Positions 27,741 to 47,232 of a stretch of DNA of 64,000 nucleotides are shown in pieces (position 1 is the stretch's first letter; each line of letters starts with the position of its first letter). The notes beneath the pieces were generated by a model. The model made no database searches. It was not told where the DNA came from and saw nothing but the letters and a program-made list of their open reading frames with translations. The translations under genes were made by a program, and so were the position numbers. The DNA comes from Thermoanaerobacterium aotearoense (GTDB lineage Bacteria; Bacillota; Thermoanaerobacteria; Thermoanaerobacterales; Thermoanaerobacteraceae): assembly GCF_009905255.1 (NCBI RefSeq), contig NZ_CP047602.1, positions 1 to 64,000 of the forward strand, given 5' to 3'.

Positions 27741-27759
27741 TTATATGCAATTGAATAAA

Positions 27760-27954
27760 GTTCGTTAAGTGAGGCTCCTATGCGGATACATGCTGATGCC
27801 CGGAAACATCGAGAGATGCCAATGGGTCAACAGATTCTACCGTTACAAGGTTTAATCTAATTCAGCCGGTACTACCTATGCCGCATAGTGCTAAAACCCA
27901 ACGAGTGTGTTGAGATTAGAGCCTTTTACGTTTTGTAAAAGGCTTAAATTTTTT
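27760..27954 (+). promoter_or_regulatory. M-box (ykoK) magnesium riboswitch with terminator
   Basis: The conserved M-box blocks are present in order: the GTGAGGCTCCTA segment near 27769, TGCCCGGAAACATC, GATGCCAATGGGTCAACAGA, CTATGCCGCATAGTGCTAAA, and a terminal closing strand. An expression-platform terminator follows: a 10-bp stem (27920-27929 with 27935-27944) then a T run (27949-27954). In known M-boxes Mg2+ binding compacts the aptamer and favours termination, switching off magnesium uptake. The downstream genes fit this. Confidence 0.95.
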
Positions 27955-27971
27955 AAAGGCAGGTGGTAAAG

Positions 27972-28055
27972 ATGGACTCTGGCCCTTATAGTCATAAGCG
28001 AATAAAATTTAATAATTCAAAAAAGAATATGAGGGAGGAGTCTATCTTGCCTTAA
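27972..28055 (+). CDS. 27-codon leader ORF between M-box and magnesium genes
   Basis: AGGTGG at 27961-27966 stands five bases before an ATG that opens a 27-codon ORF ending at TAA 28053-28055. The product is basic in the middle (SHKRIKFNNSKKN) and ends MREESILP. Codons 21-24 form the 5' arm of a hairpin (28032-28041 with 28057-28066) whose 3' arm is complementary to the Shine-Dalgarno sequence of the next gene. It looks like a regulatory leader peptide rather than a functional protein; translation is not proven. Confidence 0.5.
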   Translation: MDSGPYSHKRIKFNNSKKNMREESILP

Positions 28056-28078
28056 AACTCCTCCCTTAGAAAAGGAGG
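28032..28078 (+). promoter_or_regulatory. Hairpin that can alternatively mask the Shine-Dalgarno of the MgtE-N/CBS gene
   Basis: A perfect 10-bp stem pairs 28032-28041 with 28057-28066. CCTCC in its 3' arm (28060-28064) can instead pair with GGAGG (28074-28078), the ribosome-binding site of the gene starting at 28086. The two pairings exclude each other. No U tract follows, so it is not an ordinary terminator. Confidence 0.5.
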
Positions 28079-28085
28079 TAGTGAA

Positions 28086-29336
28086 ATGCCAATTTTAAGC
28101 CTTTATTTAAGCAGGATTTTAGGCAATAAGATATTGCTTAAAAATGGTGAAGTTTTAGGTAAACTCAAGGATATTGGAGTTTCAACAGAGTTGACGCATC
28201 CAATTGCAATATCCATGTTGGTAAAGACGAAATCTGGCGTCAAAGAGTACAAGTGGGAAAACATAAAGATAACGAAAAAATTTGGACAGTACGAGCTTAT
28301 GTGCACAGAGCCAATAGAGGCAAATGGCATTAAAGATGTCTTGTACTTGTCAAAAAATGTCTTAGATAAACAGATTATCGACGTGAATGGAAGGAAAGTA
28401 GTAAGAGTCAATGATATAAGGCTGGCACTTTTAGATAAAGGTTTGTTTGCGATTGCTGTCGATATAGGTGTTGAAGGCATATTGAGAAGACTTGGACTTG
28501 CAAAGCCTTTAAAGAGGATATTAAAGAGATTTGGCAAAACTATATCCAGCAAATTCATACTTTGGGAAGATATAGAGACGATTACTCGCGCAAGAGAAAA
28601 CATAATGCTGTCAAAGACGTATCACAAGCTGGCCACACTTCACCCTTCCGACCTTGCGGATATAATAGAAGATCTGGATTTTAAAGCCGGCATAGATATA
28701 TTCTCCAGCTTAGAGCACGGAAGAGCCGCAGATGTGCTGGAGGAAATGGAGACAGATACTCAAAGAAGCATATTAAACGAGCTGCCTGTCTCTAAAGCTG
28801 CGGACATATTGGAAGAAATGCCTGCAGATGAAGTTGCAGACATACTGGATGATCTGAATGAAGAAAAAGTAGAAGAACTATTGAATGAGATGGAAAACAA
28901 TGCGTCGTTGGAAGTCAGAGAGCTGATGGAATACCCGGAGTATGCCGTTGGAAGCTTGATGACCACCGACTTTGTGGCATTTGAAAATACGCTTTCCGTT
29001 GAGGAGGCAATAAAGGAGCTTAGGCTTTTAAAACCAGATGAAGATATCATTTATTACATCTATATAGTTGATGAATCAAATAGGCTTTTAGGCGCAGTTA
29101 CGCTTAGAGATTTGGTGATTTCAGAGCCTAATACCCTATTAAATGAAATCATGAACAAGGACATCATCTACACCCGAGATATGGATTCAATAAAATCCCT
29201 CATAAAGACAGTGACAAAGTACAATTTGGTAGCGATTCCTGTTGTAGATGAAGATATGAAGCTATTGGGCACTGTCCTTATAAATGATATAATATACGAA
29301 CTTATGAGAAGTGGAAAGACGTACGCAAGGAGGTAG
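28086..29336 (+). CDS. PRC-barrel/MgtE-N/CBS protein, soluble regulatory module of magnesium uptake
   Basis: A 416-residue protein without transmembrane helices. It carries two PRC-barrel-like segments (about 8-75 and 85-165), an MgtE N-terminal superhelical domain (about 190-290, repeats such as PADEVADILDDL) and a CBS pair (about 300-410). It is thus the cytosolic magnesium-sensing half of an MgtE channel with the membrane half missing. The next gene supplies a membrane transporter, so it may gate that protein. The M-box upstream supports a magnesium role; the gating is inference. Confidence 0.85.
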   Translation: MPILSLYLSRILGNKILLKNGEVLGKLKDIGVSTELTHPIAISMLVKTKSGVKEYKWENIKITKKFGQYELMCTEPIEANGIKDVLYLSKNVLDKQIIDVNGRKVVRVNDIRLALLDKGLFAIAVDIGVEGILRRLGLAKPLKRILKRFGKTISSKFILWEDIETITRARENIMLSKTYHKLATLHPSDLADIIEDLDFKAGIDIFSSLEHGRAADVLEEMETDTQRSILNELPVSKAADILEEMPADEVADILDDLNEEKVEELLNEMENNASLEVRELMEYPEYAVGSLMTTDFVAFENTLSVEEAIKELRLLKPDEDIIYYIYIVDESNRLLGAVTLRDLVISEPNTLLNEIMNKDIIYTRDMDSIKSLIKTVTKYNLVAIPVVDEDMKLLGTVLINDIIYELMRSGKTYARR

Positions 29337-29342
29337 TGTGAA

Positions 29343-30578
29343 GTGACAAAGAGGAAGACATTTCTTACAAATTTGTTGATATTTTTGTCGATTTTAGGGC
29401 CAGGTATAATCACAGGAAGTGTTGACAATGATGCAGGTGGCATAACCACTTATTCTGTGGCAGGTGCTACTTATGGATATAAATTGCTTTGGACATTGAT
29501 ACCGTCATTTATCGTCCTGATCGTCATACAGGAGATGAATGCCAGGATGGGCGTCGTGACGGGGAAAGGATTGGCAGACCTTATAAGGGAAAACTTCGGC
29601 GTAAGAGTCACGTTTTTCATCTTTCTCGGACTTCTTATCGCAGACATTGGAAATACTGCTACAGAGTTTGCTGGTGTGGCAGGCAGCATGGAGATCTTCG
29701 GCATAAGCAAGTATATAATGGTGCCATTGGCCGCTTTAGCTGTGTGGTTTTTAATCGTAAAAGGCAATTATACTGTAGCGGAAAAAGTATTTTTGATATT
29801 CAGCGTCTTTTTGCTGTCATACGTCATATCAGCCCTTCTGTCACATCCAGATTGGAAGGCTGTAGGCCAGTCCATCATAAAACCCACCATGTCATTTAAC
29901 ACAGACTATTTAAGCATGGTAATAGGTATAGTAGGTACTACGATAGCGCCTTGGATGCAATTTTACATGCAATCATCGGTTATAGAAAAAGGCATAAAGA
30001 TAGACGATTATAAGTACACAATTTGGGACGTTGTGATAGGCTGTATCGCAACAGTTGTCGTGGCTTTTTTCATAATAGTTGCCTGTGCATCTACTCTTAA
30101 TGTGAATGGCATAAAAATAAATGAAGCAAAAGATGCAGCCATGGCTTTAAAGCCGCTGGCTGGTGAGCTGGCATCAGGCGTATTCGCATTTGGGCTCTTT
30201 ATAGCATCCATCTTTTCCGCTGCCATACTTCCAGTTGCTACAGCATTTTACATCTGTGAAGCGTTTGGGTTTGAAGCAGGCATAGACAAAAGGCTTGATG
30301 AAGCACCGGAATTTTATACGCTTTTTACAGCCATAATAATAATAGCAGTTGCCATCATATTGATTCCACATGCGCCCCTTATTACAATCACAATTTGGAC
30401 GCAGGTTTTAAATGGAATCTTGTTGCCGGTGGTGTTGATTTCCATGATGCTTCTTGTAAACAACAAGGAGATAATGGGGAAATACGTAAATAATCCTTTG
30501 AAAAACGTCATCGGTTGGAGCACCACGATAATTTTAATAGGACTGACTGCTGTTTTAATGTTCTTTTCATTTGCTTAA
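29343..30578 (+). CDS. NRAMP-related magnesium transporter
   Basis: A 411-residue NRAMP/SLC11-fold protein with about eleven helices. The usual first-helix DPGN is replaced by DNDAG (residues 28-32) and the sixth-helix MPHN by APWM (202-205), so the metal-site methionine typical of Mn/Fe carriers is alanine. Such changes are characteristic of the NRAMP-related Mg2+ transporters (NRMT). It starts at a GTG after AAGGAGG, seven bases after the CBS protein gene, under the same M-box. Mg2+ is the likely substrate. Confidence 0.85.
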   Translation: MTKRKTFLTNLLIFLSILGPGIITGSVDNDAGGITTYSVAGATYGYKLLWTLIPSFIVLIVIQEMNARMGVVTGKGLADLIRENFGVRVTFFIFLGLLIADIGNTATEFAGVAGSMEIFGISKYIMVPLAALAVWFLIVKGNYTVAEKVFLIFSVFLLSYVISALLSHPDWKAVGQSIIKPTMSFNTDYLSMVIGIVGTTIAPWMQFYMQSSVIEKGIKIDDYKYTIWDVVIGCIATVVVAFFIIVACASTLNVNGIKINEAKDAAMALKPLAGELASGVFAFGLFIASIFSAAILPVATAFYICEAFGFEAGIDKRLDEAPEFYTLFTAIIIIAVAIILIPHAPLITITIWTQVLNGILLPVVLISMMLLVNNKEIMGKYVNNPLKNVIGWSTTIILIGLTAVLMFFSFA

Positions 30579-46799: not shown

Positions 46800-47232
46800 T
46801 ATGAGAAAATTTACCGACATAAATGTTAAGGTTATCGTTCTTACCCGGGGAGGTCTGAATGATATGCTCAAGGTAAGAATAAATTTTCTCCATGAGTAAA
46901 CTATATCGTGAGGTATAGTTGAGCGTTCAGAAGTCATTTCAAGTCATAGTACTGTTTGAACCTACCGAAAGGATAGGTAAGGGAACGACTTGACGGTAGT
47001 AATTAAGTAGATATTAGGATAGACTGTTCATGTTTGAAAGCTGTCAATCCTGATAGGGACTGCCTAACAGAAAATATAGTGGAACTCGAAGATAAAGGTT
47101 AGGAGTACTTAGTGAAATCTACGCCTAATATATGGAGGTAATCTCACTTATTTATTTATCGAACCGCCGTATACCGAACGGCACGTACGGCGGTGTGAGA
47201 GGACGGCGGTTAGTCACTGCCTCCTACTCGAT
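46800..47232 (+). mobile_element. ORF-less group II intron
   Basis: Hallmark bacterial group II intron segments are present: CATTTCAAGTCATAGTACTG, GGGAACGACTTGACGGTAGT, GTGGAACTCGAAGATAAAGG and CTACGCCTAATATATGGAGG. The domain V-type hairpin (ACCGCCGTA with TACGGCGGT, about 47164-47197) and the 3' end CCTACTCGAT at 47232 follow. Domain IV carries no reverse transcriptase gene. No GTGCG 5' end is seen, so the 5' boundary is uncertain and the intron may be truncated there. It ends two bases before the convergent AraC gene's stop codon. Confidence 0.82.

Follow-up and report, generated by a model that had tools for sequence, protein, structure and literature searches.

A small ORF placed between a Mg2+ riboswitch and a Mg2+ transport operon poses the question of whether the riboswitch is the only control of that operon. 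Such a locus occurs in Thermoanaerobacterium aotearoense (contig NZ_CP047602.1), of which we analysed positions 1 to 64,000 of the forward strand. This stretch of 64,000 nucleotides is called the window below, and all coordinates refer to it.

Organisation of the leader and the operon

The RF00380 element upstream of the Mg2+ transport operon is a full-length M-box (ykoK) followed by its expression platform, an intrinsic terminator (Table 1). For M-boxes it is established that the aptamer folds at high Mg2+ and transcription terminates, and that low Mg2+ permits read-through. Among the Rfam matches of the window is also one to group-II-D1D4-1 intron domains (46897-46989, 42.3 bits). Among named relatives, Thermoanaerobacterium saccharolyticum is the nearest (97% over the first structural gene). 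This gene does not encode a complete MgtE, as the Pfam search found no MgtE membrane domain in it. The two genes (28086-30578) probably encode a Mg2+-type Nramp, with DNDAGG in its TM1, and a separate Mg2+-sensing partner with PRC, MgtE_N and CBS domains.

The initial annotation had described, beyond the M-box terminator, a 27-codon ORF with a good ribosome-binding site, a perfect 10-bp hairpin with its 5' arm in codons 21-24, and a CCTCC in the 3' arm that could pair with either the ORF arm or the GGAGG of the structural gene. We observed all three. The ORF starts 15 bases beyond the terminator, and a longer ORF call from 27963 corresponds to an upstream GTG in the same frame. Arm A (28032-28041) and arm B (28057-28066) form 10 Watson-Crick pairs, and the CCTCC at 28060-28064 has an alternative partner in the GGAGG at 28074-28078, ahead of the ATG at 28086. 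None of 1000 dinucleotide shuffles of the leader equalled the score of this hairpin, and the combination of arm A, anti-SD (B) and SD (C) arose in 1.2% of 1000 such shuffles. The MFE fold computed from the ATG of the ORF, in the window and in its closest relatives, pairs the first codons of the ORF with arm A, and B with C, so that the SD of the gene would be closed by default. With this fourth segment, the predicted choice is between 1:2 plus 3:4 (SD closed) and 2:3 (SD open). These mutually exclusive structures, deduced from the sequence and from folding models, would link the translation of the leader to the downstream gene.

Table 1. Features of the leader and of the genes behind it.
Feature	Position	Strand	Evidence
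M-box Mg2+ riboswitch aptamer (RF00380)	27754..27916	+	cmscan, 142.1 bits, E 4e-32, all 169 positions (1-169)
Intrinsic terminator of the M-box: stem of 10 bp (AGCCTTTTAC/GTAAAAGGCT), then T run	about 27919..27956	+	Sequence inspection
Ribosome-binding site of the leader ORF, AGGTGG, 5 nt upstream of ATG	27961..27966	+	Sequence
Leader ORF, 27 codons, MDSGPYSHKRIKFNNSKKNMREESILP and stop	27972..28055	+	Sequence; conservation in the genus, where its length changes in frame; MD-x-[DG]-P leader across Firmicutes
Codons 1-8, ATG GAC TCT GGC CCT TAT AGT CAT (Asp2, Pro5, AGT7), proposed pausing or drop-off word	27972..27995	+	Position-specific conservation (88 leaders), codon bias, folding model
Segment 1, first ORF codons; ATGGACTCT pairs with 28037-28045, CCCTTATA with 28028-28035	27972..27990	+	MFE fold
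Segment 2 (arm A), partner of segment 1 or 3; hairpin part AGGGAGGAGT at 28032-28041 (codons 21-24)	28028..28045	+	Folding, pairing statistics
Segment 3 (arm B, anti-SD), ACTCCTCCCT, partner of segment 2 or 4	28057..28066	+	Folding, pairing statistics
Segment 4, SD of the structural gene (AAAAGGAGGTAGT)	28070..28082	+	Sequence; B:C pairs in fold
PRC/MgtE_N/CBS protein, first controlled gene, no MgtE membrane domain found	28086..29336	+	Pfam
Nramp-family transporter, operon gene 2, GTG start just past the stop of gene 1	29343..30578	+	Pfam Nramp, 339 bits; TM1 DNDAGG

Conservation of the leader ORF

Matches to RF00380 were found in 43 of the 61 relatives, in 34 of the 37 genomes of the class and in 135 of the 398 of the phylum, as well as in 52 of the 151 genomes sampled from the class of Neobacillus. 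Dereplication gave 98 M-box loci from 72 genera and 46 families, and in each one we picked the small ORF with the strongest SD between the M-box and the main gene, ignoring its peptide. Shuffled leaders, main genes, the 3' parts of the ORFs and the leaders of SAM and TPP riboswitches served as controls. The ORF has an acidic/Pro start in 58 loci, from 46 genera and 30 families, whereas the same procedure finds one in 3.2% of 3920 shuffled leaders; combined with an SD of at least 7, this start is found in 39 of the 98 loci, against 0.05% of the shuffled leaders. The N-termini of the main genes have it in 12 of 98 cases. No acidic/Pro leader ORF was found in 55 SAM and TPP riboswitch leaders, which include four small ORFs with an SD, none with an acidic residue 2.

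Examples of these starts are MDPDPGSSIKN, MDTDPDGRCFY, MDADPEPQ, MDDPDADL, METDPGRSM and MDGDPCKS, and named hosts include Paenibacillus filicis (MDPDPSIERC), Neobacillus pocheonensis (MDDPDAV), Desulfosporosinus (MDTDPDGR), Pelosinus (MDSGPSGH), Heliobacterium chlorum (MDTGPSSR) and Clostridium tyrobutyricum (MDIGPYGG). Beyond the first 8-10 residues, which form the conserved part, the peptides diverge in length and in sequence, also among members of a single genus. The genes downstream include MgtE-domain proteins, P-type ATPases and CorA-type proteins, the latter two assigned by eye from the start of the protein. The leader ORF is thus conserved across Firmicutes, and the observation is far more general than the window alone. 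Absence of the ORF or the hairpin from related M-box operons had been set as the refutation of the initial annotation; it did not materialise, since the ORF is present in most of the Firmicute M-box operons examined.

Some M-box operons have no leader ORF. At the loci of one family (f17, e.g., L017, L064, L072 and L089), the M-box lies directly upstream of an unidentified membrane protein with a GTG start (VARATNLALTMIMAALLIAFAYFAYQG...). In Pelosinus (L225, L227, L228 and L230; 778-1267), a tandem pair of complete M-box aptamers is followed by the MDSGPSGH leader and the same MgtE-domain gene; these leaders apparently have three Mg2+ inputs each.

Four genomes without a match to RF00380 carry an acid/Pro leader, with anti-SD pairing, before a PRC/MgtE_N gene: two Spirochaetaceae bins (L185 and L189), a Kapaibacterium bin and a bin labelled Bacteroidota (L162 and L165 are among these loci). 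Their leaders start with MDAGPGSPHD, MPDSDHASPEP, MDPDSVRK and MDPEPANS, and inspection of L165 revealed an anti-SD that pairs with the SD and the start over 12 bases. Hence, the leader is separable from the riboswitch.

Peptide and codon usage at the start of the ORF

Among 116 distinct leaders, residue 2 is Asp or Glu in 85, and these two amino acids account for 26% of positions 2-7 and for 6% from position 13 onwards. The consensus is AUG-GAY-NNN-GRY-CCU-AGU-AGU-CGA, i.e., M-D-x-[DG]-P-S-S-R. The order is fixed across the 88 leaders with an early acidic residue: an acid at codon 2 (85 leaders) and again at codons 3-4, Pro at codon 5 (41), Ser AGT at codons 6-7 (48) and Arg CGA at codons 7-9 (19). 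The peptide of the window is a mild version, with one Asp and one Pro among its first eight residues.

The synonymous codons are biased as well. Within codons 2-11, Ser is encoded by AGT in 66% of cases against 21% in main genes (p 7e-20), Arg by CGA in 42% against 4% (p 2e-15), Pro by CCT in 54% against 30% and Ile by ATA in 55% against 31%. GC-rich leaders still use AGT for 14 of 19 Ser codons. Because AGT is in frame in 86 of its 93 occurrences in codons 2-11, its enrichment looks like an effect of decoding and not solely of the RNA; this, and its occurrence at varying codons, disfavours AGTAGT as an RNA motif. The leaders prefer AGT to AGC, though one tRNA decodes both, an observation that remains unexplained. 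In an assay based on the Salmonella his leader, CGA, AGU, GGU and, moderately, AUA stalled ribosomes (PMC4046918). We also found stop codons of the -1 frame by codon 6 in 74% of leaders against 44% of synonymous randomisations, with the excess near codons 2-6. A frameshift-and-stop device has been set aside for now, as the AGT bias alone may cause this excess.

The recurrent Pro could mean that the signal is Pro-tRNA or the m1G37 methylation of this tRNA, since TrmD needs Mg2+; slow decoding of CC[C/U], and not drop-off driven by acidic residues, would then hold the ribosome on segment 1. This model was proposed for mgtL (Gall 2016) and is described in a review (PMC6335274). It fits the Pro at codon 5 in 41 of the 88 leaders, the use of CCT or CCC for 64 of 91 Pro codons and the presence of both codons in E. 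coli mgtL. However, CGG, the Arg codon that depends on m1G37, is absent from the leaders (none of 64 Arg codons, against 16% in main genes), which speaks against the m1G37 model, and the model does not predict the enrichment of CGA and AGT. Moreover, several leaders have acidic residues without Pro (MESDDDYLKK, MESEEGDYY, MDDGEGLEKR), and 85 of the 88 have an acid at position 2. We regard Pro sensing as unlikely, though it cannot be discarded.

Predicted coupling to the downstream gene

The leaders would be coupled to the downstream gene in two ways. In the 47 leaders in which the ORF does not overlap the gene, the alternative pairing with the gene SD is over-represented: complementarity between A, B and C is significant (p<=0.05) in 18 of them, against 1 of 11 overlapping leaders, and the four-segment statistic reaches p<=0.05 in 12 of the 47. 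Pairing between segments 1 and 2 is found in the window, L081, L096, L109 and others. The remaining 29 of the 47 non-overlapping leaders have no significant A:B:C set, so the RNA logic is not uniform. In other loci, which the initial annotation did not foresee, an ORF that runs through the start of the gene takes the place of the hairpin. These overlapping ORFs keep an acidic start (MESDDDYLKK, MEYDDWDPG, MEVDSVPRW, MEESPYRR), which argues that the nascent chain, and not RNA pairing alone, is under selection.

A further arrangement was seen upstream of P-type ATPases (L002, L006, L018 and relatives), where the leaders are very long. The SD and start of the ORF (GGTGAGAAGAATGGA) complement a site just after or near the end of the ORF, and the interior of the ORF (GGTATATGTAATATGACATTGAAGAAGG) complements a distant segment that is also able to pair with the gene SD. 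By complementarity, these leaders would form an interleaved, pseudoknot-like arrangement.

The pairings allow a second alternative, in which the MD-x-D-P start arises chiefly as a side effect of RNA pairing and the ORF regulates by translation alone, without any effect of the nascent chain: segment 1 must complement the SD-like segment 2, so words such as CCC and GAC would be favoured. The pairs between segments 1 and 2 and the 12 leaders with a significant four-segment statistic are what this alternative expects. It does not account for the strongly acidic starts of overlapping ORFs, where the A:B:C signal is nearly lacking, nor for the in-frame position of AGT, which points to decoding. The acid at codon 2 is also near-universal, whereas the pairings differ among loci. 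We therefore give this alternative little weight, no more than Pro sensing.

A ribosome footprint was then moved along the ORF in silico, and the opening of the gene SD was computed at each position by equilibrium folding. In the window, the mean opening rises from 0.31 for the ribosome-free leader to 0.57-0.60 for a P-site at codons 1-6. It returns to about 0.31 from codon 12 on, with a slight rise at the last two positions. The effect is sharper in L081 (0.17 / 0.84 / 0.17) and L106 (0.39 / about 0.9 / 0.00). Among 36 non-overlapping leaders, early (codons 2-6) minus late (codons 13-22) opening exceeds 0.2 in 12, against 5.0% of shuffles, and is below -0.2 in one, against 8.6%. Two close relatives of the same genus (L020 and L019) show no opening with the ribosome on early codons under equilibrium folding. 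This approach replaced a comparison of SD opening with and without the RNA of the ORF, which showed no general trend (p 0.74) and was too crude because arm B often begins at the stop of the ORF. The SD is thus predicted to be open only while a ribosome occupies about codons 1-8. The idea that the position of the ribosome decides whether the gene start is exposed holds in the folding model, with one correction: the opening position is at codons 1-8, not at the hairpin arm.

Proposed serial Mg2+ switches and their alternatives

We consider it likely, without being certain, that these transcripts carry two Mg2+ switches in series, the M-box and then a leader ORF read by the ribosome. At low Mg2+, read-through past the M-box terminator would produce the leader mRNA, on whose ORF we infer that a ribosome initiates. 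In the untranslated leader, the pairs 1:2 and 3:4 would keep the gene SD closed. A ribosome delayed on codons 2-8, or repeatedly lost there, would cover segment 1 and leave segment 2 free; the latter could then pair with segment 3, opening the SD and allowing the translation of the transporter genes. If a ribosome continued along the ORF, it would cover segment 2, and 3:4 would close the SD again. In relatives with overlapping ORFs, early drop-off would free the gene start directly, and completion of the ORF would close or occupy it. The direction of control is in both cases inferred. Two features would make early pausing or drop-off likely, the acidic and Pro residues of the nascent chain and the slow decoding of CCU, AGU and CGA. 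Drop-off is inferred to depend on Mg2+: it would most likely be greater at low Mg2+, when ribosomes are unstable, as in E. coli MgtL and as proposed for Salmonella mgtQ, so that translation itself would be the second Mg2+ sensor. The initial annotation had claimed a second layer of control, at translation. The ORF and its conservation, the pairings, and the peptide and codon bias support this, but control by the behaviour of the ribosome remains an inference, because there are no expression, ribosome-profiling or Mg2+ data.

The ORF might instead encode a small working protein under M-box control, as suggested for the pe20 uORF of Mycobacterium tuberculosis and for MgtR-type peptides. Strong ribosome-binding sites, the conserved peptide start and the precedent of rv1805A (PMC12810186) speak for this idea, yet conservation ends after the first 8-10 residues, with the rest varying even within one genus; conserved synonymous codons are unexpected for protein function, and some ORFs overlap the main gene. 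We find it very improbable. Still less credible is a chance ORF with a chance hairpin in an M-box operon controlled by transcription only, for which one can cite the lack of experimental data on function and the M-box operons without an ORF, but which is at odds with a leader in 30 families against 3.2% of shuffles, its absence from all 55 SAM and TPP leaders, and codon biases with p values of 2e-15 and 7e-20.

The reading with two switches in series can be extended. The Bacillota-wide word AUG GAY NNN GRY CCU AGU AGU CGA may serve to sense Mg2+ through the ribosome, encoded both by the nascent peptide (acid, Pro) and by poorly decoded codons (AGU, CGA). It would be added behind M-boxes before MgtE-, MgtA- and CorA-type genes, linked to them through alternative RNA pairs or an overlap of ORF and gene, and present without an M-box in other lineages (spirochaetes and others). 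On this broader proposal we see the case as evenly balanced. In most of the Firmicute M-box operons that we examined, the M-box, the textbook transcriptional Mg2+ riboswitch, seems to provide just one half of the control, the other being a switch that responds to ribosome behaviour and lies between the M-box and the transporter genes. To our knowledge, a translation-based Mg2+ switch of this type is known only from enteric bacteria. If such a second switch operates behind Firmicute M-boxes, Gram-positive and enteric bacteria both use the ribosome as a Mg2+ sensor, which probably evolved independently. The about 100 natural leaders form a variation series in which not only the peptide but also the synonymous choice (AGU, CGA) is conserved, and how Mg2+ sets ribosome drop-off that depends on the nascent chain and on codons becomes testable. 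Our search, restricted to the open-access literature, turned up no description of acid/Pro leaders downstream of M-boxes in Firmicutes; priority is not proven.

Comparison with known systems

The closest parallels are enteric. In leaders of the intrinsic ribosome destabilisation (IRD) type, acid or acid/Pro residues stand early in a short ORF before a Mg2+ transporter gene, and this is met by the MDSGP of the window and by 58 of 98 relatives. MgtL of enterobacterial mgtA (MEPDPTPLPRRR in E. coli) is likewise encoded by a short ORF between a leader RNA and a Mg2+ transporter gene. It has a similar acid/Pro-rich start (MEPDP, compared with MDPDP and MDSGP), followed by Arg, and it adds a second Mg2+ input beside the first regulator. 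The codon vocabulary is also similar, including CCT and CGA (ATG GAA CCT GAT CCC ACG CCT CTC CCT CGA in E. coli). The EPDP of E. coli MgtL causes ribosome drop-off at low Mg2+ (PMC11282234); by this precedent, Mg2+ would act twice on the Firmicute transcript, on the RNA and on the stability of the ribosome. The output of MgtL is Rho-dependent transcription termination, whereas the Firmicute leader has an M-box with an intrinsic terminator and then a predicted control of the SD; the sequence suggests SD occlusion rather than an output of the MgtL type. The two belong to different phyla and share a motif, but common ancestry is not demonstrable.

Salmonella mgtQ, in the mgtC-mgtB intergenic region, has acidic residues near its start (Asp2 and Glu5) and a choice between 1:2/3:4 and 2:3 (PMC8092293), the same topology as in our leaders. 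There, the SD of a Mg2+ transporter gene is opened when ribosomes are destabilised on segment 1, as predicted for the Firmicute leader. In contrast to the 27-codon ORF behind an M-box in the window, mgtQ has 8 codons, lies within an operon and has no riboswitch; the Firmicute switch occurs repeatedly, in many Firmicute families and ahead of transporters of several families.

In the pe20 operon of M. tuberculosis, an M-box is followed by a conserved uORF ahead of Mg2+-related genes (D'Halluin 2026, PMC12810186), as in the window. The M-box of pe20 itself controls the SD of the uORF, with Rho termination. The window does not meet this definition, because an intrinsic terminator separates aptamer and uORF. 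Neither an acid/Pro start nor SD switching by the uORF on the next gene is described for pe20, whereas the ORF of the window is predicted to control the next gene. In the amino-acid attenuators (trp, his, ilv), the position of the ribosome on a leader ORF also selects between alternative hairpins. They differ in that MDSGPYSHKRIKFNNSKKNMREESILP has no run of codons for a single amino acid, the operon is one of Mg2+ transport, the output is the opening of an SD and the presumed signal is Mg2+ and not a charged tRNA; the leader of the window is thus not an amino-acid attenuator. By analogy, mgtL and mgtQ would be the mechanistic models, and the combination of an M-box and a uORF is known from pe20 in a different arrangement. 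The locus would then hold an enteric-like IRD leader that resembles mgtL and mgtQ, with an inferred Mg2+-dependent drop-off, placed downstream of an M-box.
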